IMG/VR virus record: IMGVR_UViG_3300042314_001187
Coordinates: 62,001 to 126,000 of that record
Length of the DNA: 64,000 nucleotides
Strand: one strand, 5' to 3'
Source: a virus
Shown here: positions 21,309 to 52,986 of the stretch, one piece after another
Numbering within the stretch: position 1 is the stretch's first letter
How the letters are laid out: each line of letters starts with the position of its first letter
The notes under the pieces: generated by a model
Told to the model about the DNA's origin: nothing
The model's database searches: none
Seen by the model: the letters and a program-made list of their open reading frames with translations, nothing else
Position numbers and translations under genes: made by a program

Positions 21309-21340
21309 AAAAAAACAAAAGAGGTATTACTACCTCTTTT
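21309..21340 (-). terminator. Rho-independent terminator closing the glycosyltransferase cluster
   Basis: On the minus strand, AAAAGAGGTA / TACCTCTTTT form a 10-bp stem with a 4-nt loop, followed by a T-run. The upstream arm overlaps the last bases of the 571-residue glycosyltransferase gene. Confidence 0.88.
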
Positions 21341-23054
21341 AACTTTCTTTTCTTAAATCTCTACTGTAATGGTCGAATCTGTTATGTTCGGTTGGTGTTA
21401 ATAACAACAAACCAAAATTTAAATTACCTTTCTTTAGCTCCTGATACATAAAACTCATCCAAGTTTGTTCATATGGGTGAGCCCAAGTTGTATTTAAAAA
21501 CATTTTTTTACTTCCTGATTTTGAGACTAATTGAGGCCAATTACAATAATAAATGTCACCTGTAACATATGGTACACCATCTAATGATTTAACATTTTCA
21601 TACCTCACTTTAGGAGCGTTAGGGTCAGTACCTTGTTCTGGTAACTTAGGGTATTCAGGCCAATACTCATCTCTAACAACTTGAGGTACATTATACCAAG
21701 ACCATTGAACTGAATTATCTCCAAAAAACTCACTGAAATTTAATTTTAAAAAATCAAAATTTTCGTTCTTAGATATTTTAATTGATTTCTCATATAGGTT
21801 ATCAACCATACGATTAAACCCGTTTCTACACACTTCACCTTTTTTAGGGTAGAAGAACATATCATCTTCAAAAAAGAACATATATTCTAAATCAGATTTT
21901 TCAAAATGTTCGGCAATCCATTGTCTACCACCACAGATTCCTAAATTATCTTTTTTAATGTGTTCAAAACCATATTTAGAACACAACTCACTATAAATAG
22001 GTGTTGTTGTTAAATCAGTTGAGTTATCTAATAATATTTTTCTTGGTTTGTCAATAAAATCTTTATCATACTCTAACATAGAATCAATTAATGTTTGTAA
22101 TTGATTTGGACTATTAAATCCGATAACGTATAAACCAACCTTATCATTAACTACAGTTTGATATGTAATTGGTGATATTGAAGGTGTTACACTATTTGAT
22201 AAGTTAGAAATTACTTGAACTGTTTGTTTTAATTCTAAATTATCATTCTTTAGATTTTCAAAAAACGTACCTATTAAACCATTTTTTTCAATTTCAAAAA
22301 AGCTTGTTAATTCAGGGTGTTTATACAATAGAATTGAAAATAAACTTTCTTCAGTACCCATCAAATCATTATTTAATGTTTCATTTAATAATGAATAATA
22401 AACACCATTGATATTTGATATTGTGTCTTTATGACCACCGAAAAAACCACCTCTACCAACTATCTCAACTTTGTTCCCTGCGTATTTGTTAATTTCAGAA
22501 TAATTAAATCCGTGAATTTCTGTTTCAGCGTCATACGGAAACGCAACAAATGTGAATTTTTTTAAATACTTAGGTAATTTTTCTAATACTTTATCGTGAG
22601 TAAAATATCCAGGATGAACTGTATTAGTGATACCGGCATCTAACCAAAATAAATAATCAGAATTAAATTTATCCATAATTCTGGCGTCATTAAGTAAAAA
22701 CATTTTACTCATCACCAATGGATTATATAACTCTAATTTGGATTGTGTAGAATCTTTTAACCAACTTACTTGATTAGACCACTCAGGGTTATTTCTTATT
22801 TTTTGTATTTTATCGTAATAATCATTGTTTTTAAACCAATCTGTGTTACGTAAAATAAATTGAGTGTTACTATTTTCTCTGTTTTTATTGACAAACTGTT
22901 GAAGGTTCTCATCACCAAAAATGATTAAGTTAACATCAATCTTTAATAAATCAGATAGTTTATCTAAATAATGTTTATAGTTACGAGACCAATCATTATT
23001 TAAATGTTCTCTACCAATATCCCATAAACCTGTAACGATTGTTAGTTTTTCCAT
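21339..23054 (-). CDS. Two-domain glycosyltransferase (HtrL/YibB-type plus GT-A)
   Basis: 571 residues. The N-terminal half (TIVTGLWDIGRE, KMFLLNDARIMDKFNSDYLF, WLDAGITNTVHPGYF, GRGGFFGGHKDTI) follows the HtrL/YibB family. The C-terminal half from about residue 305 (VGLYVIGFNSPNQLQTLIDS, LGICGGRQWIAEHFEKSD, YMFFFEDDMFFY) is a GT-A type transferase with an acidic EDD metal-binding motif. Two sugar transfers by one polypeptide are likely. It is the last gene of a five-gene cluster lying directly downstream of the fibre genes on the same strand and ending in a strong terminator. Confidence 0.8.
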   Translation of the reverse strand: MEKLTIVTGLWDIGREHLNNDWSRNYKHYLDKLSDLLKIDVNLIIFGDENLQQFVNKNRENSNTQFILRNTDWFKNNDYYDKIQKIRNNPEWSNQVSWLKDSTQSKLELYNPLVMSKMFLLNDARIMDKFNSDYLFWLDAGITNTVHPGYFTHDKVLEKLPKYLKKFTFVAFPYDAETEIHGFNYSEINKYAGNKVEIVGRGGFFGGHKDTISNINGVYYSLLNETLNNDLMGTEESLFSILLYKHPELTSFFEIEKNGLIGTFFENLKNDNLELKQTVQVISNLSNSVTPSISPITYQTVVNDKVGLYVIGFNSPNQLQTLIDSMLEYDKDFIDKPRKILLDNSTDLTTTPIYSELCSKYGFEHIKKDNLGICGGRQWIAEHFEKSDLEYMFFFEDDMFFYPKKGEVCRNGFNRMVDNLYEKSIKISKNENFDFLKLNFSEFFGDNSVQWSWYNVPQVVRDEYWPEYPKLPEQGTDPNAPKVRYENVKSLDGVPYVTGDIYYCNWPQLVSKSGSKKMFLNTTWAHPYEQTWMSFMYQELKKGNLNFGLLLLTPTEHNRFDHYSRDLRKES

Positions 23055-23055
23055 A

Positions 23056-23940
23056 TTAATTTAATTCTTCTAAAATTTTATAAAAACTTTTATTAATTTT
23101 TAAGTGTTCATCCATCACAAGACCGGCAATTCTTTCATCTTCATGCCACCAAGTGTCAAACTCATAACTTAAAAATAAGTCAGGATGATTTCTAAACATT
23201 AATGTCATAATATCTTCTTCGTGATATAGGTAATTATCCGATTCGGTTACCTCATTAACATACTTTTCAAATAATTCTAACACATTAACCCATAACTCTT
23301 TTTTACCACCAAAAAAACCACCAATTACGTGTCTACTTCTATCATAACCATTAATAAAATGTTTTGGGTTAACAGTACCCGACCAATAATTCCTGTCGTT
23401 TTCTTTACTAACAATAGTGAATTTATCTTCACTTTTAGATATTAAATTACTTAAAAAGTTATTATTAAACAAATCACTTGAATAATATTGACTATTATGA
23501 ATTCCTGTTTTTGATAAATGTTTATTAGGTATTAATCCACAATGAGATAAACCGGCATCAAACCAAAAATAATGGTCATATGACATGTCCTCGTTTTTAA
23601 ACCATATAAATTTCATATATTGGATTTCGATACATCTATCACTACCATTTTTATCACACGCATCATAGTTTTTGTATTTTTTAAATAATTCTAAAAAATA
23701 ATGATTTTCTAAATCGTATGTTACTAATTTTAATTTATCCCTATCTACGTTGTTTTCAACATAGAAAAAAGTTTCTAATCCTTCAATTTCTCGTTCCGAC
23801 GTGTAACAAATGAAATCGGCATCAGACATTTTTAATAATGATAATAAACTCCATCTATAATGGCCACCTCTACTTGGTCTACCACCAAATTTAGTTCTAA
23901 ATAAATCACTATAAATTGATGTTATAATTTTAACTGACAT
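23056..23940 (-). CDS. HtrL/YibB-like glycosyltransferase
   Basis: 294 residues. KIITSIYSDLFRTKFGGRPS opens a nucleotide-sugar-binding fold; HYFWFDAGLSHCGLIP and RHVIGGFFGGKKELWVNV correspond to the WLDAG and GGFFGG blocks in the N-terminal half of the neighbour at 21339-23054, so the two are related. It overlaps the upstream GT25-type gene by 11 nt and precedes the next by 1 nt, a tight operon. The sugar and acceptor cannot be read from the sequence. Confidence 0.75.
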   Translation of the reverse strand: MSVKIITSIYSDLFRTKFGGRPSRGGHYRWSLLSLLKMSDADFICYTSEREIEGLETFFYVENNVDRDKLKLVTYDLENHYFLELFKKYKNYDACDKNGSDRCIEIQYMKFIWFKNEDMSYDHYFWFDAGLSHCGLIPNKHLSKTGIHNSQYYSSDLFNNNFLSNLISKSEDKFTIVSKENDRNYWSGTVNPKHFINGYDRSRHVIGGFFGGKKELWVNVLELFEKYVNEVTESDNYLYHEEDIMTLMFRNHPDLFLSYEFDTWWHEDERIAGLVMDEHLKINKSFYKILEELN

Positions 23941-24664
23941 AATTAAATTCTTTATGTATATTATTCTTTTTTATTTGTTGATTAGATTCGTAATTTAAAA
24001 ATTCTGAATCTATTTTATATGGGGAATATAAGTTCCAATTGTATGTTTGTAGATAAAAATTACTATAATTACCTTGGGTAACATCTGAGAAATCACTTTT
24101 TTGAGGGGCTATTGGTAATATTGGGCAATAACTTTGTTTGATTGGTAATACTTTAAGATAAATATACTCATCAATTGGGTAATAACCATGTAAATTTTCA
24201 GTTATAATTCCCTTAACATTCTCATATATTGATTTATGATATACAATCATATTTGTCGCATAAACACCCCTATGTATTTCTTCTTTTGGTGGATAATTAG
24301 TAATATCTATTAACATTTTATCTTTCACACTAATTTCAACAGGTCGATTATGTGTTGGGGATAAATTTAGAATCCCAAATTCGGTATTTTCTAAAACAAC
24401 ATTTAATTGTTTTATAAATGATTTAGCGTTAGGTAAAAATGAGCAATCATCTTCAATTACCATAACGTATTCATAATCTCTTTCAATCGCTAAATCAATA
24501 ATGGCAACATGAGATAATGTACATCCTACATGACACCCTGTGTCAATCGCTTTAAATAATTCATAGTCCCACCCAATGTACGACATTTCCTGTTTAATAT
24601 GTTCTAATCTATCGGTTCTTTTTTCTAAGTTTAGGACAAATTTTGGTATTTCATTTAAGTTCAT
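23930..24664 (-). CDS. GT25-family glycosyltransferase
   Basis: 244 residues. FVLNLEKRTDRLEHIKQEM is the typical GT25 start (V-N-L-x-x-R-x-x-R). GCTLSHVAIIDLAIERDYEY and VMVIEDDCSFLPNAKSF provide the conserved S-H and metal-binding EDD blocks. GT25 enzymes transfer galactose or glucose in LPS synthesis and, in eukaryotes, to collagen hydroxylysine. Here it sits in the fibre-proximal cluster. It overlaps the following gene by 11 nt. Confidence 0.85.
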   Translation of the reverse strand: MNLNEIPKFVLNLEKRTDRLEHIKQEMSYIGWDYELFKAIDTGCHVGCTLSHVAIIDLAIERDYEYVMVIEDDCSFLPNAKSFIKQLNVVLENTEFGILNLSPTHNRPVEISVKDKMLIDITNYPPKEEIHRGVYATNMIVYHKSIYENVKGIITENLHGYYPIDEYIYLKVLPIKQSYCPILPIAPQKSDFSDVTQGNYSNFYLQTYNWNLYSPYKIDSEFLNYESNQQIKKNNIHKEFNYVS

Positions 24665-24677
24665 ATTATGTGTGTTT

Positions 24678-25457
24678 TTATATTATTAACCAATTATCAG
24701 GATAAAGGTCGTCTGTTATGTATGAACTATAAGACGGACCAAACCATTTACGGGGGGAGATAACGATATTTTCTTTTTTATTTAACCAAGCACCCCACCA
24801 ACTAAAACTACTATTAGCAATTACATTGTTATCACAAAATGACATTAAGTATAATTCTTCATAATCTTCTAAACCTTCAATATAAATTTTATTTTTAATG
24901 AAGTCAAAGTTGGTTTTACAAAATTCAATATCATCTGAAAATATAAGATATGTCGAATCCTCACCAATAATATTATAAGATTCTTCATAAAAATCAAAAG
25001 ATAAAACAGGGTGGTAATTATTTAAATGAAGATAATCACCTCTTCGAATATGAACTGAACAAGTTTTAGTTTTTAAAATATCATTATATTTAATTAACAA
25101 TTTTTCTTTAATTTCGTTATTACACTCGAAAATCTCTAATATTTTTTCTCGGTTTTTCTTAAAATATTTATCACTTTGGAAATATCCTGATAATTTAATG
25201 TTTCTATCAAAATTAGGTAATTCACAATAATGAAAATGTGGAACATTATATACATCATAATGTATTTTGTTATATGATAATTTTATTCTTTGGAAGATAT
25301 TGTTAACATATTTGGATATCGGGTGATGATTATTATAAAGTTCCGTAATATCAACAATAAAATCAGAATTTTCATCTAATGATTTTGAATATCCTGTTGC
25401 TATTTGAAACATTGTGTTACCTAGACCTCCAAATATTTTTGATGCTATAACATTCAC
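24678..25457 (-). CDS. GT11-family fucosyltransferase-like enzyme
   Basis: 259 residues with the GT11 signature set: GGLGNTMFQIATGYSKSLD near the N-terminus, CSVHIRRGDYLHLNNYHPVL (HxRRGDY, GDP-fucose-binding region), and NSSFSWWGAWLNKKENIVIS near the C-terminus. GT11 members are mainly alpha-1,2-fucosyltransferases. Length is slightly below the usual ~290. It lies between the GT25 and GlcNAc-transferase-like genes, so a terminal fucose on the cluster's glycan is the natural inference. GDP-fucose would have to come from the host, as no synthesis genes are seen here. Confidence 0.88.
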   Translation of the reverse strand: MNVIASKIFGGLGNTMFQIATGYSKSLDENSDFIVDITELYNNHHPISKYVNNIFQRIKLSYNKIHYDVYNVPHFHYCELPNFDRNIKLSGYFQSDKYFKKNREKILEIFECNNEIKEKLLIKYNDILKTKTCSVHIRRGDYLHLNNYHPVLSFDFYEESYNIIGEDSTYLIFSDDIEFCKTNFDFIKNKIYIEGLEDYEELYLMSFCDNNVIANSSFSWWGAWLNKKENIVISPRKWFGPSYSSYITDDLYPDNWLII

Positions 25458-25471
25458 TTTATTTAATATTT

Positions 25472-26719
25472 TTATAAACTACCTGTTAATCTATCACCCC
25501 ATCCTTTAGATGTCGAGTACGGCCAAACAACCCAATACTTTGGTTTATGTGTTGTTTGAAATTCTCTCCATACTTTACAATATCCGTCAGGGTCATTTTT
25601 CATACGATTAATTTCGTTAATATCAGCATCTTGTCTATGAATTGTTTCATCATTTTCATCGTGGAAAGCAACTACCCAAAATTCATAATCTGTTTCAGGT
25701 ACTGAGTCATAACCAACATCAATACAATGTTTAAATATTGTAGCAAAACTATCTTCCCATTCCTCTTCGGTTTCAAATATAAATGGATTTGGTGGGTAGT
25801 TTTTATCTAACGTGTATTGTTGAACCGCACGTCTTGAAAATCTTAAACCTGAGTAAATTTCATATTCTTTAAGTGTTCTCTCAGTACCAAAACCGTAAAT
25901 ACCAAAATCAACATCAGATAATTCGCCATCCATACCAAACAATTTTCTGTTTTTACTATGTGACACATTATTTCTCATTACCCATTCTTTATCATCATCC
26001 CATTGTTTTGTTCTACCTTTTCTTGTGTATTCGTGCCAAATCAATGTTTTATGTGGGTGGAACAAATCATATCCGTGAGTATAAGCTCTAGCGGCGATTG
26101 AAATCTCTTCTCCGTGAAAATAAAATTCAGGGTCGTGTTGTACCTCAGTACTAAATTGACCTACAGTAAAGGCAAAGTGAGCTGAGTAAAATCTTGATGT
26201 TACAGGTTCTTTTAATTGTTCCCAACCTGGTATTGTTTCAGGTAAAAAGAATACCGCACCTTCGGGGATAAAACGGTCAAACACCATTCTCCAAGGTTCT
26301 TTAATTCTTTCAGCCGGGTCATTTTCAGGGTTAAATGATGATACATACCCCGTTAATAAAGGTTTTTTAAATCCTTTTTTCTGTAATTGTTTAACCATTT
26401 TAATAAATTCATCATCCCAATTTTTTTCAAATCTCATATGTGAATCTATCTGAAGTGTGTATTCCTCACCACCATATAATTGTTGTACTTGATTTCTAGC
26501 CCAACAAACACCTTTAGATTCGTTATATAAAACATCTAATATTCTAAATTTTTTATCTTTTCTAAATTCATTTAAGGTATCAAAACCATCTTCAGGGTGG
26601 TATTGTCTACAAACACCAATTCTAAGATTGTTAGGTTTTTTAGCATTCTCAATCATGCTTTTAATTGTGTTCTCCAATTCAGGGTCTCTATACGATGCAA
26701 TTTGCACAAAAATTTTCAT
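25472..26719 (-). CDS. GlcNAc-transferase-like glycosyltransferase (Skp1 GnT type)
   Basis: 415 residues. MKIFVQIASYRDPELENTIK, GVCWARNQVQQLYGGEEYTL, then QIDSHMRFEKNWD (DSH metal-binding motif) and FYFHGEEISIAARAYTHGYD match the 'Glycosyltransferase (GlcNAc)' family that includes the Dictyostelium Skp1 hydroxyproline GlcNAc-transferase. This family acts on proteins in its characterised member, which matters because the upstream gene encodes a 3795-residue Thr/Pro-rich protein. It is first in the five-gene cluster. A TATTTAT element lies 37 nt upstream. Confidence 0.85.
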   Translation of the reverse strand: MKIFVQIASYRDPELENTIKSMIENAKKPNNLRIGVCRQYHPEDGFDTLNEFRKDKKFRILDVLYNESKGVCWARNQVQQLYGGEEYTLQIDSHMRFEKNWDDEFIKMVKQLQKKGFKKPLLTGYVSSFNPENDPAERIKEPWRMVFDRFIPEGAVFFLPETIPGWEQLKEPVTSRFYSAHFAFTVGQFSTEVQHDPEFYFHGEEISIAARAYTHGYDLFHPHKTLIWHEYTRKGRTKQWDDDKEWVMRNNVSHSKNRKLFGMDGELSDVDFGIYGFGTERTLKEYEIYSGLRFSRRAVQQYTLDKNYPPNPFIFETEEEWEDSFATIFKHCIDVGYDSVPETDYEFWVVAFHDENDETIHRQDADINEINRMKNDPDGYCKVWREFQTTHKPKYWVVWPYSTSKGWGDRLTGSL

Positions 26720-26755
26720 ACTTCATTTTTTTTTAAAAAATAAGTTTATTATTAT

Positions 26756-26762
26756 ATAAATA
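26756..26762 (-). promoter_or_regulatory. Candidate late promoter element TATTTAT (glycosyltransferase cluster)
   Basis: TTTATTTATATAATAATAAA on the minus strand, 37 nt before the first glycosyltransferase of the cluster, in the short gap after the giant adhesin. Confidence 0.5.
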
Positions 26763-26771
26763 AAGATTTAA

Positions 26772-29700
26772 TTATAAACCAAATCTATCTTTTTGACTGT
26801 TAAAATTAGACAATACCTCATCGGAAGTTAACGCTCTATTATATATTCTAAATATTGACATATAACCTTGATAGTGGAAGTTAGAATTGTCACCTGTAAA
26901 ACAACCAATATCAAGTGGTAAGTTATAGTCTTGTATTAATAATGACAAGTTTAAATCATATCCTGAATCAACACCGTTAATATATGTGTAGAAACCTGTT
27001 GATGTCCATACACCAACAACTTGATTCCATTGGTTTAATGTTGTTGTTCCTGTACTTGTGTATGTGCCAAAACCAATTCCAGGTGCATTTGCTCCCAACA
27101 TCCATAAGTGACCTGTTGGGTCAATTCTCATTCTTATCCCATCATTACTACCTTTACTGAAAATTTCTCGATTGGCAAATAATGTTGGTTTCAACCAAAC
27201 CTCAACTGATACTGTGTTAGTAATTGCTGATAATGTTGATGTGTTAGGAATTGCGAATTTTTGATTACTACCATTAAAACTAAAATTACCCATTTTATCT
27301 GATGAAAAAACCGTTGCGGCATTTGTTGGTACTAATGATTGGTAAAATGTTGAGTTATTATTATTATCCGTAATATCGTTCCACGCAGTTCCCAAACTAG
27401 GCCAAGATAAATCAGAACCAGCATCTAACCATACTACAAGACCCGACACTTCAATTGGGTATTGAGGTTCTGAACTAATCATAATATATGGTCCACTTGA
27501 TAAATCAACCCATTGATTAAATGGTCCACTGATTGGTTGTGTAGGCGATGAACTCTCTAAATAAGAATATAAAGTACCTGAACCTAACACAGATGAATTA
27601 TACCAATTTGTTGTTGGGGTATCATACCAAACATAAGAAACTGTTGAAGTATAATTATTATTAGGTACTTCATAATATCTTCTACCATTCCAAACACCAG
27701 GTGATTCTGACATTGTGAAGATATTATCTTCGGTAAATGAATCATACCATGTCCATCTCCAAGGATTGGGAATTGTAAATGAGGGGCAAGGTTCAAATCC
27801 ACATTGATATTGAATAAATGGCGGTACAGGTAGTACTGTTACCTGACTTTTTAAATTAAAATATATCACACCATTAGCTAAGCTAGAAACTGAATATGTG
27901 TAATATTGGTTATCACATCTTGATGTATAATCACCTGATAAATATCCGACACCCCATTTGATTCCTGGAAAATAGACATCAATAGTAACACCTACACCAA
28001 CTGTTATAGAATTTAAGACTGTGTATGTCGTACCGGTAGCGTCAACTACTGAAGATAAAGTAACCCAAGGTCCGTTATTAACACGATATACCATACTTGT
28101 TGAGGTAACTATGTCACAATTGGCGTATAAAGGTAAATCAGTTTGTGCTAATATTTGAACTGTAATTGAGTTACTACAGTTTTGACAATCAACAAATGTT
28201 GTAGAACCACTTTGATATAACATTGGTCCTATGTAAGGGCTATTTATCGGGTTTTCTTGTATTGTTCTATAACATAAACCATTATTATCTTTAACAACCG
28301 TATTGCTTGGTAATGATTCAGGTAATACCATAACATAACTATTGGCTAAACAACTTATTTGTAATGGTTCGGTTATTTGTTCAATTATTGGTTCTGTAAC
28401 AATGTTTTCGGTCTCACTTAAACTTAATGGACCTGATGGTAATGTATAATTTCTATATTTAAAAAATTGAAATGCTGGTAAATATAATCCTATTTTGGTA
28501 AAAACGGAATTTCCTAATAATAATGTGCTTTTTTTACTACTTGATATATTCCTAATTTGGTTCATAACAAGTAATAATTGGTTTATACTTTGTGCAACAC
28601 AACTAGTATTGTTAATGTCAGTCCAAGTATTAGTTGTTGGATTCCAAAAATAAGTTGATTGTGTTGCTCCTGTTGTTACAATTAAACGACCATTAACACT
28701 AGGTGTTGGTGCTAATGATATGTTGTTAATTGGTGGTAAATAAGTAAAACCTGTTATTGGTCCAAATATTGTTGATAGTGATGTTGTACAAAAAGTTGGT
28801 GTGGTCCAAGATTCATAATAATTTAACGGTCTATACCACTTATAATTAACTAATCTAAGTTTAGTTCTGGAAAATTTGGAACTATTACTACCAAAAAATT
28901 GGTAATAAGAAGTTAATGAGTTAACATCTGTAGTCCAACCATTATATCTATAATCTAAATTTTGAAGATACTTTTGTAAAAATTCATTTCTGTTAATGGC
29001 GATGTTCTCATCAACGTCAGTCCAATTACTATCACAATCAAAACATTCAAGGTCTGAGGTAGTAATCTGAAAGAAACTGTCATCTAAAAAGTTTATATCA
29101 ATATTTGGTATACTGACCATATATGATGGGTCATTACAGGTTGAAGGTAAAACACAATTTGACTCAGGATAAACACGATTTAAACTACAACAAGGTACAA
29201 CACAATATAATGAAGAACAAGATATTTCATAAACATAACCACTCATAGAACATAGACGAGGTACTGGTGTTTTTGTTGGTGTTTGAGTTAGCGTTTTTGT
29301 TGGTGTTTGTGTTCTTGTAGGTGTTTTTGTTACACTTGGTGTATTTGTTGCGGTTTTTGTCACACTTGGCGTTTGTGTAGGTGTTTTTGTCACACTTGGG
29401 GTTTGTGTTCTTGTAGGTGTTTTTGTTGGGGTTTGTGTTCTTGTCTGTGTTGGTGTTTGTGTCGGACAAGGATTTGTTTGTAAACAGATACCGCATTGTT
29501 CACCAATTGGGTCATAAGCGGGTTGTGCACCATTCCATATTTTATTTGCAACACCTGTCGTTGATTCAAAAATTTGATAACATTGTCCTAATGTATCTTT
29601 AACTACATAAGTAAAATACGGGAATTGACTTGGTGTGTAAATTGTTGGTAGTAACATTTTGTGAAGAGTTACCAAATCACAACAACTAATAACGTTGAAT

Positions 29701-32700
29701 AATGTGTATGGTGTTGTTGGGGTTTGTGTTTGAGTTCTAGTTGGCGTTTGTGTTCTTGTGTTTGTTGGTGTTTGGGTTCTAGTTGGGGTTTTTGTTTGTG
29801 TTCTTGTTATTGTGTTTGTTGGGGTTTTTGTTACACTTGGGGTTTGTGTTCTTGTAGGTGTTTTTGTTGGGGTTGGTGTTTGAGTTCTTGTTATTGTGTT
29901 AGTTGGTGTAACCGTTCTTGTTGGTGTTTGAGTTCTTGTTATTGTGTTTGTTGGGGTTTTTGTTACACTTGGGGTTTGAGTTCTTGTTATTGTATTTGTT
30001 GGTGTAACCGTTCTTGTTGGGGTTTGAGTTCTTGTTATTGTATTTGTTGGGGTTTGAGTTCTTGTTATTGTATTTGTTGGTGTTGGGGTTTTAGTTGGTG
30101 TTTGTGTTGGTGTTTGTGTTGGTGTTAATGTTGGACAAACATTTGATGGTACACATAATGTACAAGGGTCAGGAGCCCAAGGTAGATTTTGTGTTGGTGT
30201 GGCGTTATTCCATATCTTATTTGGTGTGCCAGTTGACACTCCAAGTATTTTATAACAAAGACCATCGGTTGCAATAACTGACCAAGTTATTGTTAAAAAT
30301 TGTTGGTTGTCATAATATGGTGTGTAAATTGTTGGTAATGACATTAAATGTAATGATGAATTACAACAACTTTGAATTTGAAATAATGAATATGGGGTTG
30401 TTGGTGTTTGGGTTTGGGTTCTTGTTGGTGTTTGGGTTTGGGTTCTTGTTGGTGTTTGGGTTCGGGTTTGAGTTCTTGTTGGTGTTTGGGTTTTAGTTGT
30501 GGTATTTGTAGGTGTTGTGGTATTTGTAGGTGTTGGTGTTGGTGTCGGACAAACACCTAATGTTGACTGAGTAATATAATAAATACCCCCCTCAACAGTC
30601 CATAAAAAAGGAGTGTTATTTATTGGGTATTGTGGTGTTCCGATACCACCTGTAAGAACTGAATAGGTTTCACCACCGTTTAATAATGAGGAGAAAAACC
30701 ATTCCTCCGCACCTGGTGAGAGGTAAACATACCCTATTAAAATTGAATTTGAGTCATAAATTGGATAATAAGGGTAACCATTAAAAAATCCTAAAGAACT
30801 TACGTTAGAAGTCCAAGTTACAAAACCTGTTGAAACTGTGAAACAAATTAATGGTGGTTGTGTAATTGTTGGAGTTTGTGTTCTTGTTATTGTGTTTGTT
30901 GGGGTTTGTGTTCTTGTTGGAGTTTGTGTTTGTGTTCTTGTTATTGTGTTTGTTGGGGTTTGTGTTCTTGTTGGAGTTTGGGTACGAGTATTTGTTGGGG
31001 TTTGAGTTCTTGTTGGTGTATTTGTTGGGGTTTGAGTTCTTGTATTTGTTGGGGTTTGAGTTCTTGTAATTGTATTAGTTGGTGTAACCGTTCTTGTTGG
31101 TGTGTTAGTTGGTGTTGAAGTATTTGTTGGCGTTTGAGTTCTTGTAATTGTATTTGTTGGCGTTTGAGTCCTTGTAATTGTATTTGTTGGAGTTTGAGTT
31201 CTTGTAATTGTATTTGTTGGTGTTTGAGTTCTTGTAATGGTATTAGTTGGTGTTGGGGTTTGAGTTGGGGTTTGAGATGGTAGGATAGTATAATCACAAA
31301 TACATATAATGATACCTAAAATATTACCACCCCCATTTATACCAAAATCTTGAATATATAATTCCCAAGTACCATTTGCGTTAGCAGCTGAGGTTCCGAT
31401 AAATGTTGTTAAACTATTACCATTTTGAGTTGCGGTATAATCAGGTAAACCTGAGGTGTTCCACGCAATTGATTTATACACGTAAGTGTCGTTAGTGTAA
31501 GTACCTGAACTATAACCATCCCATAATGTTGGTGAATAGTCAGTTAAAATTGTATTAACATTATTAACAGGTTGGATTGATGTTCCTTGTCTACCTGTTA
31601 ACAAAGCGGTGTTACCGTTTGGTGATTTTAAAATCATTGCGACATCACTAGAGTCTGCGTGTGAGTAACCACTAATTCTAACTTCAATTCTAGTTACAGG
31701 TGAATCTAAACCAGATACGTTAAACGTTATTGGGTAAGGTGAGGCGTTACCTAAAGACGGTATTATTATACCTGAAGGTGTATTTGTGGCGTTAAAACAA
31801 TGACATTCTATTGGTGGTGTTGGTGATGGTGTTGATGTATTTGTTGGAGTTTTAGTTCTTGTAATTGTATTTGTTGGCGTTTGTGTTCTTGTAATTGTGT
31901 TTGTTGGCGTTTGTGTTCTTGTGTTAGTTGGTGTTTGGGTCCTTGTTATTGTATTGGTTGGTGTAACTGTTCTTGTTATTGTGTTTGTTGGTGTGACTGT
32001 TCTTGTTGGTGTGACTGTTCTTGTTGGGGTATTGGTTGGTGTTTGAGTTCTTGTCGGGGTATTTGTGTTAGTAGGTGTTTTTGTCCTTGTTATTGTATTT
32101 GTTGGTGTGACTGTTCTTGTTGGGGTATTGGTTGGTGTTTGAGTTCTTGTCGGGGTATTTGTGTTAGTAGGTGTTTTTGTCCTTGTTATTGTATTTGTTG
32201 GTGTTTGTGTTTGTGTTATAGTGTTAGTTGGTGTTTGTGTTCTTGTTGGTGTTTGTGTTCTAGTTGGTGTTATAGTTCTAGTTGGTGTGACAGTTCTAGT
32301 TGGTGTATTTGTAACAGTGTTAGTAGGTGTTGATGTTACTGTTGAGGTAACAGTGTTAGTAGGTGTTGATGTTACTGTTGGTGTTGGAGTTGGTGTTGGA
32401 CACGGATTGAAAGTGTTACATTGAATACAAGGGTTGGTGTTAATACCCTCATACACTTGACCGTAGTTACCATTCCAAAATTTGTTAGGGGGTAATGGTG
32501 AAGTTATTAATTCATTAACAACAAAACACTGACCGGTTGTGTCAACAACTGAATATGAGTAACTATTACCACCAGGAGGTCCTATGATAGGTTGAAATAT
32601 AGTTGGTAACGACATATAGTAAGTAACCGGAGATGAAAAACAACAACTTGAAACTTTAAAGATTGAATAAGGTGTTGTTGGAGTTTGTGTTTGGGTTTTA

Positions 32701-35700
32701 GTTTGTGTAGGTGTATTAGTTGAAGTTTGTGTTCTTGTATTTGTTGGGGTTTGTGTTCTTGTATTTGTTGGGGTTTGTGTTCTTGTATTTGTTGGGGTTT
32801 GTGTTTGTGTTCTTGTATTTGTTGGGGTTTGTGTTTGTGTTCTTGTGTTTGTTGGGGTTTGTGTGTTAGTGTTTGTTGGGGTTTGAGTAATAGTATTTGT
32901 TGGTGTACTAGTGTTAGTTTTAGTTATAGTATTAGTTGGGGTTTTTGTATTAGTAGGTGTTTGTGTGATAGTATTTGTTGGTGTACTAGTATTAGTTATA
33001 GTATTTGTTGGCGTTACAGTTTTAGTTGGTGTTTGTGTTCTTGTGTTAGTCGGTGTTTGTGTTCTTGTGTTAGTCGGTGTTTGTGTTTGTGTTCTTGTGT
33101 TTGTTGGGGTTTGGGTTTGTGTTCTTGTGTTTGTTGGGGTTTGGGTTTGAGTTGTGGTATTAGTTGGGGTATTAGTTTGTGTGTTAGTTTGTGTTTGAGT
33201 GTTAGTTGGAGTTGATGTTTGGGTAGGGGTTGACGTTGGTTCAATACAAGGTATTTTACTAAAACATCCGCTGGAAATGTCATATGTGAATGTTCCAACG
33301 CACTGATTATTAGGACAGTTTAAACCTGTGATTGTTGATTGTGGGAAATTTCTTTGAGCTAATAAAACACCACCAACATTTATGAAACCAAAATTGGTGT
33401 TACTAATCATAGTACCTCCAGAATAAGCGTACATAGTAATGTTTAACGCTCCTGTAGTGAATGATGTTAACCAATTTGCTTTAGAGGTTAATTGTATTGA
33501 TGATAGTGTGGGGTATGCTGTTTTTAAAGAAGTAACGCTAACATAAATTGACTCAGAACCTTGTGAGTTAGTATTATCACCACCCCAAAATAAATATGGA
33601 CCACCATAAATACCTGAAGGTTGAGAACCTGTAACACAATAACCTAAAGGACCTTGGGTTAATGGGTTTATTAATGTTGTCTCAGTATTTAAACCAAAAC
33701 CTGACCCCGGAGGGAAATTATAAACCAAAACAATATAATCAGCTCCTGGATAACAAGCATTTGTTGGGGTTGGGGTTTGTGTCGTTGTAGGTGTTGGTGT
33801 GTTTGTTTGAGTTCTTGTGTTAGTTGGGGTTTGTGTTGGTGTGTTTGTTTGAGTTCTTGTGTTAGTCGGTGTTTGGGTTATTGTATTAGTTGGGGTAACT
33901 GTTTTTGTTGGGGTAACTGTTTTTGTTGGTGTTTGTGTTCTTGTATTAGTAGGTGTTTGTGTAATAGTGTTAGTAGGAGTTTGTGTTTGTGTTATTGTAT
34001 TAGTAGGTGTTTGAGTAATGGTTTTTGTTGGGGTTTGTGTAATTGTATTTGTTGGTGTTTGTGTTCTTGTTGGTGTTTGTGTAATTGTGTTAGTTGGTGT
34101 TTGTGTACGAGTATTTGTTGGCGTATTAGTGTTAGTTGGGGTTTGAGTTCTTGTTTGTGTTTGTGTTGAAGTAATTGTGTTTGTTGGTGTGGAAGTTTTG
34201 GTTGGTGTTTGAGTGTTAGTATTTGTTGGGGTTTGTGTAATTGTGTTTGTTGGTGTAACTGTGTTTGTTGGTGTAACTGTGTTAGTCGGTGTTTGTGTGA
34301 TTGTGTTTGTTGGGGTTTGTGTGATTGTGTTTGTTGGTGTTTGTGTTCTAGTATTTGTTGGTGTTTGTGTTCTAGTATTTGTTGGTGTTTGAGTAATAGT
34401 ATTTGTTGGTGTTTGAGTTCTAGTATTTGTTGGTGTTTGAGTTCTAGTATTTGTTGGTGTAACAGTTCTTGTCGGTGTATTTGTTGGGGTTATCGTATTT
34501 GTTGGGGTTATCGTATTTGTTGGTGTTTGGGTTTGAGTTGAGGCGGGTGTTGCACCTGGACTTTTGGTTGGTGTTTGGGTAACATTTGAAGTTCTTGTTA
34601 CCGTTGACGTATTTGTGTTGGTTGGTGTGTTTGTTGGAGTCTGAGTTTGAGTGTTAGTTGGTGTTTGAGTAATTGTTTGAGTTTGTGTAATTGTGTTGGT
34701 TGGTGTCTGTGTAATTGTGTTGGTTGGTGTCTGTGTTCTAGTATTTGTTGGAGTCTGTGTTCTAGTATTTGTTGGAGTCTGTGTCTGAGTTTTGGTTGGT
34801 GTCTGTGTAATTGTGTTGGTTGGAGTCTGTGTTCTAGTATTTGTTGGTGTAACAGTGTTAGTTGGAGTTTGTGTTCTTGTCTGTGTTTGGGTTTTAGTTT
34901 GTGTAGGTGTCTGAGTGATAGTATTTGTTGGGGTTTGGGTAATGGTATTTGTTGGGGTTTGGGTAATAGTGTTAGTTGGTGTTGATGTGTTAGTTTGTGT
35001 TACAGTGTTAGTTGGTGTTTGTGTTATTGTGTTTGTTGGTGTTTGGGTGTTAGTTGGTGTTGATGTGATAGTATTTGTTGGTGTGACTGTTTTGGTTGGT
35101 GTTGATGTGTTAGTTGATGTTTGTGTACGAGTGTTAGTCGGTGTTTGTGTACGAGTGTTAGTCGGTGTTACAGTTTTGGTTGGTGTTTGAGTGATAGTAT
35201 TTGTGGGAGTGTTAGTTTGTGTGTTAGTTTGTGTGTTAGTTGGTGTGTTAGTTGGGGTTTGTGTTTGAGTATTAGTTGGGGTTTGTGTTTGAGTATTAGT
35301 TGGTGTTTTAGTATTTGTTGGTGTTGGTGTTGGTGTGGAACAAATACCAATGTTGGAGGATAACATAGAATTACCGTCAAATGAACCTGTCCAATTATGT
35401 AAAGAATTACTTACCGGATATTCACTATCTAAATTTAAAATACTGAATATTATCCCACTACCAATTGATTCTGAATATTTCCAAATTTGTAATGTAGGGT
35501 CAAACCAAACATAACCAATAACGGTAAATGAATCTATAATACCATAGTAAGGTTTACCATAGATAAAACCTCCGGCAGTTGTATTGTACAGAATTTGACC
35601 TGATGTTATGTTATTTGTGTATCTAAAACAAATTAATGGTGGCAATGTTGGGGTTGGAGTCTGTGTTCTAGTATTTGTTGGTGTTTGTGTTCTTGTGTTA

Positions 35701-38159
35701 GTTGGTGTTTGTGTTTGGGTTTTAGTGTTAGTTGGGGTTTGGGTTGGTGTTTTAGTGTTAGTCGGTGTTTTAGTGTTAGTCGGTGTTTGTGTTCTTGTTG
35801 GTGTAGGTGTTGCGGTAGGACAAGGGTGAACTAAAATACAATTCACACATCCGTTACCCGTGTCAACGTATACGTCGTTATAATTACCATTCCAAAATAA
35901 GTCAGGTGTTTCACCACCAGGACCTGATGATATGATTTTATAACAAAATCCATTAGTATCTGAAACAACAAATGATGAAAAACTTGGGAAAAAAGTTGGT
36001 GTGAAACTAATTGGTAATTCCATAAACCCTGTTGTATTATTACAACAACTTTCAACGATAAATAAATCATATGGTGTTGTTGGTGTTGGTGTTTGAGTTG
36101 TGGTTGGGGTGTTTGTTGTGGTATTTGTTGGTGTTTGGGTTATAGTATTTGTTGGTGTTTGTGTTTGAGTTCTTGTGTTAGTTGGTGTTATGGTTACTGT
36201 GGGTGTTTGTGTTTTTGTTGGCGTATTTGTTGGGGTTTGTGTTCTTGTTTGTGTTCTTGTTATTGTATTTGTTGGGGTTTGAGTTCTTGTATTTGTTGGG
36301 GTTTGAGTTCTTGTCTGTGTTTGTGTTATTGTGTTTGTTGGTGTACTCGTATTAGTATTTGTTGGGGTTTGAGTTCTTGTCTGTGTTTGAGTGTTTGTTT
36401 GTGTGATAGTATTAGTTGGAGTTTGAGTAATAGTGTTAGTTGGGGTCTGTGTGTTAGTATTAGTTGGGGTCTGTGTGTTAGTCGGTGTCTGTGTGTTAGT
36501 ATTTGTTGGGGTTTGTGTGATAGTATTAGTAGGTGTTTGTGTTTGAGTTATAGTATTAGTTGGTGTTTGTGTCTTTGTTTGAGTTATAGTATTAGTTGGT
36601 GTTTGTGTTTTTGTAGGTGTTTGTGTACGAGTATTAGTTGGTGTTTGTGTACGAGTATTTGTTGGTGTTTGTGTTATTGTGTTTGTTGGTGTTTGTGTAC
36701 GAGTATTTGTTGGTGTTTGTGTTTGTGTTTTTGTTGGAGTTTGTGTTCTTGTATTAGTTGGTGTGTTGGTTGATGTTATTGTGTTTGTTGGTGTTTGTGT
36801 TGATGTTATTGTGTTTGTTGGTGTTTGTGTTCTTGTATTTGTTGGTGTTTGTGTTCTAGTATTTGTCGGGGTTTGTGTTTGAGTTATAGTATTAGTTGGC
36901 GTTTGTGTTTGTGTTCTTGTGTTAGTAGGTGTAATAGTATTTGTTGGTGTATTTGTGTTGGTTGGTGTGTTAGTAGGGGTTTCAGTATTAGTTGGAGTTT
37001 GTGTGTTAGTGTTAGTTGGAGTTTGTGTTTTGGTTTGTGTGTTAGTATTTGTTGGTGTTTGAGTTCTTGTGTTAGTCGGTGTTTGAGTTCTTGTGTTAGT
37101 CGGTGTTTGTGTTCTTGTTATTGTATTTGTTGGTGTAACAGTTTGTGTTATAGTTTGCGTTGGTGTTTCGGTAACAGTTGGGGTTACAGTTTGAGTTGGT
37201 GTTTCGGTAACAGTTGGCGTTTGAGTTGGTGTTTCGGTAACAGTTGGTGTTTGAGTTGGTGTTTCGGTAACAGTTGGTGTTTGAGTATTAGTGTTTGTAG
37301 GTGTTTGAGTTGGTGTTTCGGTATTTGTTGGAGTCACCGTCGGGGTGACAGTATTAGTGGTGGTAACTGTCGGGGTTGGGGTTGGGGTTAAACACAAATA
37401 AGATGGGTTTTCAATTTGACAATCATAACAATTAGTTGATTGACCCATAAATTGGTGTTGGAATATTATCGGTGAGGTTGTACTCCCAATATATTGAGCA
37501 CATCCTTCAAAGTTTGTATTTGAAATAAAATAAGTACCATTTAATGGTGAGTACGACCCAGGAATGTTTGATATTCTAAATTCATAAGATGAATCACAAC
37601 AACTTCTAAAGTTACCAATAACTGGTGGTAAAGTAGGTGTGACTGTTGGTGTTGGAGTTGACGTTGGGTATGGTTCAGGGCATCCGTTGACATCACAACC
37701 AAATTTAGGTGTTAAAATATACACAGGTGACTCAACGACAACATCATAACCACAATAATATAATGTGGTATCCCCGTCAATATCAGTAATTAATGTATTA
37801 CCATCACATAAAGTTATTTGAAATGGTAATGGGTCATTCGTTGGGTTAATAATTGTGTAACACTTACACTTATTAGGTGTTGGGGTTACTGTTGGTGTGA
37901 CCGTATTAGTAGGTGTTGGGGTTGGTGTTGGTTCACAAGATAAGTATAAGAATTCTTCACAACCTGTTGAATCGGTAACAATAACTAAGACTTCAGATAA
38001 CGGTTCACCTTCAATAGGTTCAAACGCGGGTATCTCCAATACAGGGGGGACCGAAACGACACCTGTTAAGACAACTTCACAGTATGTTCTAGTTAAATCA
38101 CAGATTGTTATGTCGTAAGGTGAATGACCTGTTAAACTTGTTATATATATTACACTCAT
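26772..38159 (-). CDS. Giant Thr/Pro/Asn-repeat adhesin with Cys-rich, P-type and LamG domains
   Basis: 3795 residues. The N-terminus (~85 residues) is a small beta domain probably docking to the virion. Then long runs of TPTNT/TQTPT/TRTQTP repeats alternate with globular islands. A Cys-rich module (CC near the start, GxCY in the middle, W..., C..C..CP at the end) occurs at about residues 690-780, 1830-1920, 2590-2677 and 2816-2900, with divergent copies near 180-256 and in the C-terminal region. A second module (ICF..., GYPYY, IGYVW..., GSG..YS) occurs near 840-940 and 2440-2538, plus a C-terminal relative. A proprotein-convertase P-like domain ([20 protein letters not shown] ... [11 protein letters not shown]) covers about 2118-2292. 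The last ~230 residues are a LamG/concanavalin-like domain ending [15 protein letters not shown]. Likely an extended, multivalent receptor-binding fibre. The coding strand has almost no G in the repeats. Confidence 0.9.
29265..29460 (-). repeat. Thr-Pro repeat block 7 of giant adhesin
   Basis: Short, more Lys/Val-rich variant ([10 protein letters not shown]) linking the last Cys-rich module to the C-terminal region, about residues 2900-2965. Confidence 0.85.
29720..30130 (-). repeat. Thr-Pro repeat block 6 of giant adhesin
   Basis: Repeats of the [13 protein letters not shown] type with TPTRTVTPT variants, about residues 2677-2813, between two Cys-rich modules. Confidence 0.9.
30850..31280 (-). 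repeat. Thr-Pro repeat block 5 of giant adhesin
   Basis: [10 protein letters not shown] units repeated head to tail, about residues 2294-2437. It follows the P-like domain and is among the most regular stretches of the gene. Confidence 0.9.
31810..32400 (-). repeat. Thr-Pro repeat block 4 of giant adhesin
   Basis: About residues 1920-2117, just before the P-like domain. A segment around [19 protein letters not shown] is duplicated almost exactly (near 32030-32090 and 32110-32180). Confidence 0.9.
32675..33240 (-). repeat. Thr-Pro repeat block 3 of giant adhesin
   Basis: About residues 1640-1828; [11 protein letters not shown] and [12 protein letters not shown] units. The flanking islands are a Cys-containing beta domain and a Cys-rich module. 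Confidence 0.9.
33770..35330 (-). repeat. Thr-Pro repeat block 2 of giant adhesin (longest)
   Basis: About 520 residues of 5-12-residue Thr-rich units ([23 protein letters not shown]), about residues 944-1463. It has one break ([17 protein letters not shown]) near 34555-34600. The plus strand here is almost only G and T. Confidence 0.92.
36090..37390 (-). repeat. Thr-Pro repeat block 1 of giant adhesin
   Basis: About residues 257-690. It begins with [12 protein letters not shown] units, including a perfect run of [10 protein letters not shown] copies, then shifts to TPTNTRTQ units. The unit composition differs from later blocks, indicating independent expansion. Confidence 0.92.
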
Positions 38160-38166
38160 TTAAAAA

Positions 38167-38173
38167 ATAAATA
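38167..38173 (-). promoter_or_regulatory. Candidate late promoter element TATTTAT (giant adhesin)
   Basis: GGTATTTATTTTTTAA on the minus strand, ending 7 nt before the adhesin ATG. Confidence 0.45.
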
Positions 38174-38240
38174 CCTAAAAAGTTGATATTTTAACATTTT
38201 TATTATTAAAATAATAAGTTTTTTTTAAAATTCTTAAATA

Positions 38241-39407
38241 TTAAAAATCAACACAATTAACACTGTTAAACATTTCACATATTGTGTTTTGTAAAAATGT
38301 TGTAATTTGATTATTAGGTATTATTGTCGACGGTAACGATGGGTTATATTTTGATAATAATATCATACCAATAAATCCATTTTCACCTATGACTGTTACG
38401 GTCGAATCTAATTGATTTGGATTTGATACGCTACCTCTATTATCGGAAACACTAGAAATGACTGTATTCCAATCGGTTGATTCAACAGTAAACCAAACAT
38501 ATTCGATTGATGGGCAAGGTGTTTGTCCTGATAAAAATATAGGGTTAACACCGATATTACTATAACGATACCAACTACCAGTGATGTTATTACAACTATA
38601 AGTTCCTTCGGTTAATGTAACCTCACGAGTAATAGTGTATGGTCCATAAGTTGGGTCATTACCTGAAATAATCGACGGTAAACCAATTTCCGATATTGAA
38701 TGTGGACTAATGGTTGTACCTAAATTAATTAATGTTATTTGAGGCCAAATATTTGGTTTACTAATTAAAAAATCAGTACCAACAGTTCCATAGACTTTTG
38801 GAAATGGGTTACTAAATAAAATGGTATTACCGACATTAAACATTGATAATCCTCCTGTACTAATAAACGTTGAGCTAGGTAAGTATGAATAAGTATAATA
38901 ATTAGTAATTGATGAATATGATAAAAATGAATGTGTATTCCACCAATTATTATATTTTTGAAAACAAGATAACGGTGTTAATGTTGGAGTTGGGGTTTTA
39001 GTTAATGTTGGAGTTGGGGTTTTAGTTAATGTTGGGGTTACTGTTGGAGTTACTGTTGATGTTGGTGTTGGAGAAATTAAACAAGGGTTGGGTGTTATAG
39101 TTGGAGTTGGAGTTTTAGTAGGGGTTTTAGTTACTGTAGGTGTAATTGTTTTAGTTGGCGTTTGTGTTGGTGTTGGTCTAACAACGTTCATAAAATTAGG
39201 ACATTTTGAATTATCAACTAATATTGTGTACGTTCCAAATACATCACGAGGGGGTATTAAAGTTGAGGGGTCAAACGTATATGGTAATATAATTTGACCG
39301 AATTCTTTATTTAAATTTATAGTGACATTATCATTGTCGGGTTTAAATAATATATTAGCTGACTCACCGTCATAATTAACACTTGATATTACTATTGTAT
39401 TACTCAT
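38241..39407 (-). CDS. Fibre protein with Thr-Pro linker, short relative of the giant adhesin
   Basis: 388 residues. The N-terminal ~75 residues (IVISSVNYDGESANILFKP ... FGTYTILVDNSKCPNF) are related to the N-terminus of the peptidase-bearing protein encoded next to it, suggesting a shared virion-docking domain. A Thr-Pro linker ([14 protein letters not shown]) spans about residues 78-145. The C-terminal ~240 residues form a Ser/Tyr/Asn-rich beta domain with scattered Cys and no identified family. The gene lies 4 nt after its upstream neighbour and 82 nt before the giant adhesin gene. Confidence 0.7.
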   Translation of the reverse strand: MSNTIVISSVNYDGESANILFKPDNDNVTINLNKEFGQIILPYTFDPSTLIPPRDVFGTYTILVDNSKCPNFMNVVRPTPTQTPTKTITPTVTKTPTKTPTPTITPNPCLISPTPTSTVTPTVTPTLTKTPTPTLTKTPTPTLTPLSCFQKYNNWWNTHSFLSYSSITNYYTYSYLPSSTFISTGGLSMFNVGNTILFSNPFPKVYGTVGTDFLISKPNIWPQITLINLGTTISPHSISEIGLPSIISGNDPTYGPYTITREVTLTEGTYSCNNITGSWYRYSNIGVNPIFLSGQTPCPSIEYVWFTVESTDWNTVISSVSDNRGSVSNPNQLDSTVTVIGENGFIGMILLSKYNPSLPSTIIPNNQITTFLQNTICEMFNSVNCVDF

Positions 39408-39411
39408 CTAA

Positions 39412-40800
39412 TTAAAAATTATTTTCGATTGCTAAACAAACTTCACCATTCATTGATATTAATCTTGACATATCATTGAATGAGATAAATGCGTGTCCTT
39501 GTTTACCCCAAGTTTGTCCCCAGCTATTTTTTATTCTAAAAAGTTTTTTTTCTTTATCAACACCATTTATTAAATATGCGTGTCCTCCGACAATACCACC
39601 TGTCACTCTAATTAACCCGTTTGAGTTAGGGTAAAACATTCCTGAATACCAATAAGTACCAACAACTACAGGGCCTAATTCAAACACTGAATTAATTAAC
39701 GTGTTTAAGTCGTAACCCCAATAGTATGATTTAATTACGTTTTTAGATTGTAAATATTTTGCACCTGCTCTAACTGATGTACCTGCATAATTTTCTCCCG
39801 GCCATTCATCAATTTTTTGAGCTTCGTTATAGATTGTAACAGGTGAAATTATTGGTGGAGTACCTTCGTGACCTACAGGACCATCTTCAACCCAATGAGC
39901 CCAAGAATAACCAACACAATGAGGTAAATTACGTTGATTACCCCACCAACCATCTGAGTCCCAATACTTAAATTGATAAACAGGTGTTTTTGATGGTGTT
40001 GGCGTAACTAATACCGGTTTAGATTTTGTTGGTGTTCTTGTTGGTGTTCTTGTTGGTGTTGGTGTTGGTAATATTGGTCTACTTTTACTTGGTGTTGGTG
40101 TTATTTTATATTTATTAACAATAGGTCTAGCACGAACAATACTAAGTAGATAATCATAGTTATCCTTAATTAGGTAATTTTTATCTCTAATATCAGGGAT
40201 ATACATTCTACCTAATAGTGAAACATCCGGCTTAATTTCTAACGGTGGTTCTAATTCTTGTGTGTTATTAATTACATATGTAAAATCATTAATAGCACAA
40301 CTGTCTGTAGAACAATCAGGACAATCAGGATTGAACATTATAAATGGGTTCTTCAATAAACTAAAATTGTGTTTAACTTCAGGTGCGGATAGGGGTGATG
40401 TGTAAAATCTAAATTGAGATATTGCACCTTCAAAAGAACCTGCAAAATATTTGTTAATTAATATATTAGTATTTAAACCACTAAATGTGGTTGGACTTAA
40501 ATCCATATCTGAAAAATTCTCAGGGTCTTGAGTATACCTTTGAAATAAATCATATTCAACGGTTGTTGCCGTTATTGTTTGAGGTGAGGGTATAGGGTTA
40601 GATGATGAAATGGTAAAGTCACAAGTGAAATTATAAGCTGAAAAAAATAATTCATACTTACCAAAAAAATAATCAGTTGTATAATTGTAAGGAACAACTT
40701 GTATTCCAACATTTATTGTACCGCCTGTTTCTGGGTAAAATGTAATTTCGGCAGTTTCACCACTATAATTTCTAGTTCCTATAACTACTGTTGATGCCAT
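39412..40800 (-). CDS. Tail-associated papain-like (C1) cysteine peptidase
   Basis: 462 residues. N-terminal docking domain (VVIGTRNYSGETAEITFYP), then a LamG-type fragment (FAGSFEGAISQFRFYTSPLS) and a Thr-Pro/Lys linker. From about residue 280 there is a papain-fold peptidase. GNQRNLPHCVGYSWAHW has the oxyanion Gln six residues before the catalytic Cys (~296), the same spacing as papain Gln19-Cys25. GGHAYLINGVD supplies the catalytic His (~406) and RIKNSWGQTWGKQGHAFIS the Asn (~425). All catalytic residues are present. There is no signal peptide, which fits delivery on the virion. Likely roles are cleaving host surface proteins during adsorption or processing neighbouring fibres. A TATTTAT element lies 13 nt upstream. 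Confidence 0.9.
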   Translation of the reverse strand: MASTVVIGTRNYSGETAEITFYPETGGTINVGIQVVPYNYTTDYFFGKYELFFSAYNFTCDFTISSSNPIPSPQTITATTVEYDLFQRYTQDPENFSDMDLSPTTFSGLNTNILINKYFAGSFEGAISQFRFYTSPLSAPEVKHNFSLLKNPFIMFNPDCPDCSTDSCAINDFTYVINNTQELEPPLEIKPDVSLLGRMYIPDIRDKNYLIKDNYDYLLSIVRARPIVNKYKITPTPSKSRPILPTPTPTRTPTRTPTKSKPVLVTPTPSKTPVYQFKYWDSDGWWGNQRNLPHCVGYSWAHWVEDGPVGHEGTPPIISPVTIYNEAQKIDEWPGENYAGTSVRAGAKYLQSKNVIKSYYWGYDLNTLINSVFELGPVVVGTYWYSGMFYPNSNGLIRVTGGIVGGHAYLINGVDKEKKLFRIKNSWGQTWGKQGHAFISFNDMSRLISMNGEVCLAIENNF

Positions 40801-50887: not shown

Positions 50888-50893
50888 AATATA

Positions 50894-50932
50894 ATGAATA
50901 CTGAATTTTTTATCGAAAACGGATTTGTTTAA
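50894..50932 (+). pseudogene. Duplicated, broken start of the PhyH dioxygenase gene
   Basis: The first 33 nt are identical to the start of the gene at 52118 (MNTEFFIENGF), then a base change and altered A-run lead to TAA. Weaker similarity continues to about 50942. It flanks the 374-residue glycosyltransferase gene on its other side, marking a cassette insertion boundary. Confidence 0.85.
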
Positions 50933-50942
50933 ATTTAAAATA
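50894..50942. repeat. Direct repeat of dioxygenase gene start, copy 1
   Basis: 33 identical bases plus ~15 similar bases, matching 52118-52166. The two copies bracket the glycosyltransferase gene 50944-52068. Confidence 0.85.
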
Positions 50943-50943
50943 T

Positions 50944-52068: not shown

Positions 52069-52087
52069 TGTTGTTTTAATATAAAGG

Positions 52088-52117
52088 AATAAATAAATAA
52101 ATAAATAAATAAATAAA
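52088..52117 (+). repeat. AATA tetranucleotide tract before dioxygenase start
   Basis: Seven perfect AATA units (52088-52115) plus AA, lying between an AAAGGA ribosome-binding-like site (52083-52088) and the ATG at 52118. Repeat number would set the distance between them, so slippage could change expression. Confidence 0.85.
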
Positions 52118-52984: not shown

Positions 52985-52986
52985 TT

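Follow-up and report, generated by a model that had tools for sequence, protein, structure and literature searches.

The 64,000-nucleotide window analyzed here (positions 62001–126000 of the 131,650-bp IMG/VR virus record IMGVR_UViG_3300042314_001187) raises the question of what five glycosyltransferases modify when they are encoded beside a 3795-residue repeat protein rich in alternating threonine (Thr). The virus is assigned to the myoviruses from the tail sheath and DNA polymerase families in the record. We consider it probable that this gene island is a phage-encoded mucin-type O-glycosylation system for the phage's own tail fibers, equipped with a swappable glycan cassette, because the gene order is conserved, the predicted fold of its GT60 enzyme is GT27-like, and glycoproteins have been reported for another phage that carries this gene pair. 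A preliminary description of the window had proposed O-glycan decoration of fibers on these lines; that part is well supported, and the associated idea of hydroxyproline and collagen chemistry is not.

Alternating-threonine fibers and their gene run

The repeat proteins and the transferases lie together on the minus strand, with the variable cassette between the GT60 gene and the tandem enzyme:

40823–44044, minus strand: 1073-residue fiber-like protein with a conserved N-terminal region, a Thr/Pro linker and a C-terminal LamG_3 domain
39412–40800, minus strand: 462-residue protein with a short TPTPSKT tract and a C-terminal papain-like C1 peptidase domain
38241–39407, minus strand: 388-residue protein with a Thr/Pro tract
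26772–38159, minus strand: 3795-residue fiber with ten alternating-Thr (TXTX) blocks between Cys-containing globular modules
25472–26719, minus strand: GT60 glycosyltransferase (PF11397), directly after the fiber gene
24678–25457, minus strand: GT11 fucosyltransferase-like enzyme (PF01531, 1.1e-22), variable cassette
23930–24664, minus strand: GT25 glycosyltransferase-like enzyme (PF01755, 1.4e-15), variable cassette
23056–23940, minus strand: YibB-like single-domain glycosyltransferase without a Pfam match, variable cassette
21339–23054, minus strand: tandem two-domain glycosyltransferase (HtrL_YibB, 1.3e-15), conserved far end of the cassette
20635–21276, minus strand: 213-residue protein with a conserved N-terminal part and a Thr/Pro tail, adjoining the island in relatives

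The 3795-residue protein is real. The 13.2 kb from the GT60 gene through the fiber gene recur without a single difference in another IMG/VR record (173,656 bp), so a single faulty assembly is an unlikely source of this open reading frame (ORF). Its ten Thr/Pro-rich blocks sum to 2045 residues, 912 of them Thr, with a composition of 45% Thr, 13.5% Pro, and 2.5% Ser. Thr recurs at a lag of two residues in 94.6% of cases and at a lag of one in 2.1%, and the phase persists to lag 12 (91.8%). Between them stands Pro, Gln, Asn, Arg, Ile, Lys, Val or Ser, and almost never an acidic or aromatic residue. The Thr codons ACA/ACT/ACC/ACG are used within the blocks (527/236/125/24) in the same ratio as outside them (111/51/27/10), so the alternation is maintained at the protein level and not via DNA slippage. 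Across 27 dereplicated relatives, the lag-2 recurrence is 87% over 7,345 Thr. Together with the repeats themselves, this value points to selection for Thr at every second residue rather than to nucleotide slippage.

The C-terminal region of the fiber resembles a LamG-type module by eye, and the 1073-residue protein, whose gene opens the run, has 163 Thr/Pro residues and ends in a concanavalin A-like domain (LamG_3; PF13385, 2.7e-9). The repeat relatives, originally given as two, are the shorter Thr/Pro-rich proteins at 38241–39407, 40823–44044, and 20635–21276, whereas the protein at 39412–40800 has a short tract only. In their N-terminal parts, the 40823 and 20635 proteins matched nothing among isolate phages, so no annotated "tail fiber" homolog can be named for them. 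The peptidase domain at 39412–40800 (PF00112, phrog_16701) sits on a fiber-like protein and could be a virion-borne protease.

Fibers and transferases probably share transcription, as suggested by the small gaps in the run, a terminator after its last enzyme, and a promoter-like motif found before fiber genes but not before the transferases. From 44044 down to 21339 the genes share one strand, the gaps between them measure −11 to 81 bp, and these elements accompany them:

21316–21341, minus strand: intrinsic-terminator-like hairpin overlapping the stop codon of the tandem enzyme
673, 2612, 4921, 21299, 38174, and 44065 (minus strand), 57179 and 61505 (plus strand): [GC]TATTTAT sites 14–45 nt before gene starts

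Eight of the 20 occurrences of [GC]TATTTAT in the window lie ≤45 nt upstream of gene starts versus 1.7% expected, and this sequence pattern makes the motif a candidate phage promoter. One copy stands 15 nt before the fiber start and another 21 nt before the 40823–44044 gene; none precedes any of the transferases at such a short distance. The terminator-like stem is retained with altered sequence in loci L007 and L010 and was not seen in several other loci. The unit is longer than the span first described, 21339–40800, and runs from 44044 to 20635.

The GT60 enzyme as a proposed starter transferase

The protein encoded directly after the fiber gene belongs to GT60 by a profile match of 5.3e-70 (PF11397; 237 bits versus a curated cut-off of 21). 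Its metal motif D92-S93-H94 (DXH) is invariant in 27 divergent copies, as are HGEE at 202–205 and H229. An AlphaFold model built from a 27-sequence alignment (pLDDT 80.6) was compared with solved structures by VIA-align, and the top 29 entries were all polypeptide N-acetylgalactosamine (GalNAc) transferases of GT27 (Z 17.2–20.2; 262–287 residues aligned, spanning residues 1 to about 304), followed by LARGE1 and RmlT at Z 16.4. The predicted fold of the enzyme is therefore GT-A and GT27-like. Animal GT27 enzymes are the closest solved folds to the model (Z 17–20) and have the DXH motif in common with it; they differ in that the alignment ends near residue 304, leaving their lectin domain unmatched, and in the lack of detectable sequence similarity, searches of PDB sequences with the GT60 protein (phmmer) and its profile (hmmsearch) giving chance matches only. 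The GT11 protein likewise had no match among PDB sequences.

Mucin O-glycans are initiated on Thr by characterized GT60 enzymes of Trypanosoma cruzi (PMC3769586) and Dictyostelium (PMC3188802). The T. cruzi mucins contain 46–54% Thr and about 1% Ser (PMC3769586), and the phage blocks are similar to them in composition. T. cruzi TcOGNT-2 and Dictyostelium Gnt2 share with the phage enzyme the Pfam/CAZy family, acceptors that are rich in Thr/Pro and poor in Ser, and later transferases that extend the glycan. These eukaryotic enzymes are membrane-bound in the Golgi, whereas the phage GT60 is predicted to be soluble, is encoded beside its proposed acceptor, and is accompanied by a swapping cassette.

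In this reading, the island would work in three steps. Upon late expression, the soluble GT60 enzyme from the same gene run would place N-acetylhexosamine (HexNAc) directly on Thr of the TXTX blocks, most likely as alpha-linked N-acetylglucosamine (GlcNAc) from cytoplasmic UDP-GlcNAc. The GT11, GT25, and YibB-like cassette enzymes and the tandem glycosyltransferase would then extend or cap this sugar. Dense sugars on alternate residues may make the blocks long, stiff stalks that resist proteases and lie between globular receptor-binding modules; the outer glycan of the virion would become a changeable surface. Acceptor, sugar, timing, and the virion location of the fiber are all inferred, unlike the sequence, gene order, predicted fold, and cassette turnover.

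A hydroxyproline route is very improbable. By that route, a 2-oxoglutarate dioxygenase would hydroxylate repeat Pro and GT60 would add GlcNAc as in the Skp1 pathway, and the GT60 family does include the Skp1 hydroxyproline GlcNAc-transferase. The Pro share of the fiber blocks would also suit it. The strict phase of the blocks is held by Thr and not by Pro, however, and a single dioxygenase was found in the window, of PhyH type and in a separate cluster on the opposite strand:

50102–57121, plus strand: second sugar cluster with GT2-like enzymes, a PhyH dioxygenase, a hexapeptide acyltransferase, two CmcI/Methyltransf_24 enzymes, and a tandem GT2 protein
52118–52984, plus strand: PhyH-type dioxygenase (PF05721, 3.5e-9; HxD...H motif by eye)

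A 2-oxoglutarate-superfamily dioxygenase is thus present in the window as described earlier, but it is not a prolyl 4-hydroxylase, and the prolyl 4-hydroxylase family PF13640 was found in none of 15 records (this one and 14 related ones, which may be incomplete; control genomes were positive). Since characterized GT60 enzymes modify Thr directly (PMC3769586, PMC3188802), hydroxyproline is unnecessary. A further glycosyltransferase (46852–48069, plus strand; phrog_7162, 2e-43) lies outside both sugar clusters.

A swappable cassette between fixed ends

The neighborhood of GT60 is strongly conserved. We found 386 GT60 relatives in IMG/VR and fetched 80, on which the locus counts rest; all are metagenome contigs and, we infer, largely from freshwater. 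The ORF that immediately precedes GT60 is rich in Thr/Pro in 69 of 79 loci, compared with 60 of 508 other ORFs (p 1.5e-42, a value that overstates independence as the fetched loci are mutually related), and in 22 of 27 loci after dereplication to one per 90% cluster. Several loci outside this count hold short TPTPTP tracts on closer look. Within the cassettes, none of 272 ORFs is Thr/Pro-rich. All 74 loci holding both genes show the order GT60, cassette, tandem glycosyltransferase, with 1–13 cassette genes, and in these bracketed loci, 271 of 271 cassette ORFs lie on one strand; four more loci with 10 kb of flank have no clear tandem enzyme.

The content of the bracket changes rapidly. Pfam searches of 149 cassette representatives recovered, among others, the glycosyltransferase families GT10, GT25, GT34, GT2, GT11, and GT7 along with xylosyl- and PLOD-type transferases, as well as FkbM, CmcI and other methyltransferases, a carbamoyltransferase, a DegT aminotransferase, and a nucleotidyltransferase. 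Pairs of loci with 95–99% identical GT60 have on average 20% of cassette families in common; at 90–95% identity the figure is 3%, and 158 of 174 pairs share none. Cassette turnover is far faster than change of its flanks. Bacterial flagellin-glycosylation and O-antigen islands likewise have conserved ends around a rapidly exchanged interior, which encodes glycosyltransferases, methyltransferases, and sugar-nucleotide enzymes. The phage island differs from them in its proposed acceptor, the fibers, and in encoding no flippase, polymerase or other predicted membrane protein.

This likeness to O-antigen loci, and the overlap of the cassette families with those of O-antigen and capsule loci, could mean that the cluster remodels host surface polysaccharide for serotype conversion or superinfection exclusion, which the preliminary description had named as its alternative. 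The Foldseek order for the GT60 model, in which the teichoic-acid enzymes RmlT and TarS are mixed with GalNAc-transferases, also favors such a role, and VIA-align, which ranks polypeptide GalNAc-transferases first, argues against it. Hydropathy predicted a membrane segment in 0 of 171 cassette protein clusters, whereas a GtrABC-type flippase or bactoprenol glycosyltransferase would be an integral membrane protein, and the enzymes are co-directional with the fiber genes and followed by a terminator. Host polysaccharide modification therefore fits poorly, and we regard it as distinctly unlikely.

The five same-strand glycosyltransferases first reported are borne out as GT60, GT11, GT25, HtrL_YibB, and a fifth (23056–23940) that resembles the YibB-like tandem enzyme (25% identity over 144 residues, E 1e-5). 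The tandem enzyme comprises an HtrL_YibB domain (2–266) and a GnT-I/POMGnT1-like domain (300–560), both of which model as GT-A. The first model resembles histo-blood-group GT6 enzymes (Z about 13.5) and the second B4GALNT1, POMGnT1, and GnT-I (Z about 15). A weak PHROG match of this enzyme to hydroxymethylcytosine (HMC) alpha-glucosyltransferase (6e-4) could suggest that the enzymes glycosylate phage DNA. The T4 DNA glucosyltransferases are GT-B, unlike either domain, and no thymidylate-synthase-type enzyme occurs in this record or its 173-kb twin, either of which may be incomplete; among eight relatives, four have a match to this type (PF00303). DNA as the substrate is extremely improbable.

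The module in jumbo phages, related phages, and bacteria

The GT60 gene and the tandem enzyme recur together in distant phages. GT60 occurs in 3 of 50,697 phage records (XacN1, CM1, and RAS14), and these three are also the only ones with a full-length tandem glycosyltransferase. XacN1 and RAS14 retain the whole bracket, which encloses a carbamoyltransferase, annotated as such in XacN1, and both encode nearby a protein of 3.1–3.3 thousand residues ending in SPTPTPT tracts. Metagenomic relatives of XacN1 carry the same bracket. Proteomics of XacN1, a cultured jumbo phage, reported at least two glycoproteins, which the main text leaves unnamed (PMC5852040). XacN1 resembles the present phage in its GT60 (47%) and tandem glycosyltransferase (41%) homologs bracketing a carbamoyltransferase-containing cassette. 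It differs in having short SPTPTPT tracts instead of arrays of a thousand residues, in the position of its tract-bearing 3313-residue gene, which lies on the opposite strand and past the island's far end, and in that its tail fibers were not seen by electron microscopy.

Other phage structural proteins, such as capsid or tail tube, are unlikely to be the substrates, with the fibers as mere neighbors. Known phage virion glycosylation does target such proteins: in mycobacteriophages, phage-encoded transferases are thought to glycosylate the phage's own virion proteins, as proposed here, and the glycans there sit at the C-terminal ends of the capsid and tail tube subunits (Freeman et al. 2023, cited through PMC12619734); the unnamed XacN1 glycoproteins would be compatible with this. 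The present system differs in its long Thr-repeat fibers, GT60 starter, and variable cassette. GT60 directly follows a Thr/Pro-rich gene in 69 of 79 loci, alternating Thr is the kind of acceptor expected for GT60, and none of the island's genes was identified as a capsid gene.

The proposed fiber glycosylation finds further parallels beyond these phages. Loci L305 and L306 have a GT60 that is 39% identical, and immediately before it a gene for a protein in which TPTPTPTP linkers alternate with globular modules. Three bacterial GT60 homologs (L358, L361, and L356) are preceded by genes with PTHTNAPTKTPSP, PTPTPTP, and PSRGSD repeats. These pairs of a Ser/Thr/Pro repeat gene and a GT60 homolog (L358, 1–1234; L361, 6136–7617; L356, 1–4787) are possible bacterial mucin-like glycoprotein systems. 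Separately, bacterial contigs L344, L345, and L339 have one or two GT60 genes next to the gene for a tandem YibB-like enzyme and no Thr/Pro neighbors; these modules may be phage remnants or a cellular version of the module.

Besides the mixed Foldseek order, several observations weigh against the fiber interpretation. About 30 of 35 bacterial GT60 homologs have no Ser/Thr/Pro-rich neighbor, and PF11397 occurs in only 13 of 35 contigs picked by their Thr/Pro-repeat pattern, many of which are fragments. Twelve of these 13 also hold the family of the tandem enzyme, and none of those without GT60 does. In a related phage (G013, G014, and G028; DNA polymerase 52% identical), the GT60 island is absent from the syntenic place despite a Thr/Pro fiber, and weakly similar sugar genes occur at other positions. 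The repeats are thus not always accompanied by GT60, and in this phage another enzyme, or none, may serve the fiber. The G028 fiber, of more than 4,200 nearly all Thr/Pro residues, stands in a baseplate operon and adjoins recognizable baseplate genes (gp6/gp25-like by eye), which supports a tail location for such proteins. A second Thr/Pro-rich ORF follows it (G028, 83582–99690; L328 and neighbors); possibly a single gene was split into these two, either during assembly or in the phage itself.

The tail sheath of the present phage (6046–9900, minus strand) has 1284 residues, far above the usual length, and sheath families match mainly its C-terminal part. Its best isolate matches, at about 31–33% identity over one third to half of the sheath, are an unannotated 484-kb metagenomic phage, a Microcystis phage, and Flavobacterium phages.

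Implications

Phage virion glycosylation is already known; as far as we searched, a starter enzyme combined with a repeat substrate and a cassette is undescribed, and a literature search for Thr-rich or mucin-like phage fibers returned no matching report. We lean towards the view that complete mucin-type systems are encoded by a widespread group of freshwater phages and, at a greater distance, by some jumbo phages and bacteria, and that in these systems a GT27-like HexNAc-transferase and alternating-Thr fibers of a thousand residues are combined with a serotype-like cassette that changes the glycan among near-identical phages. If so, phages would possess mucins of their own, with an animal-type starter fold, a repeat substrate, and a glycan-switching cassette, and the question of why glycosyltransferases are carried by many metagenomic phages could be put to a concrete test. 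The system would also offer bacteria a route to Thr-linked glycans that is soluble and cytoplasmic, and it would bear on the origin of the GT27/GT60 mucin enzymes. Glycan variation would then be suggested as a layer of phage–host recognition beside the protein receptor-binding domains.

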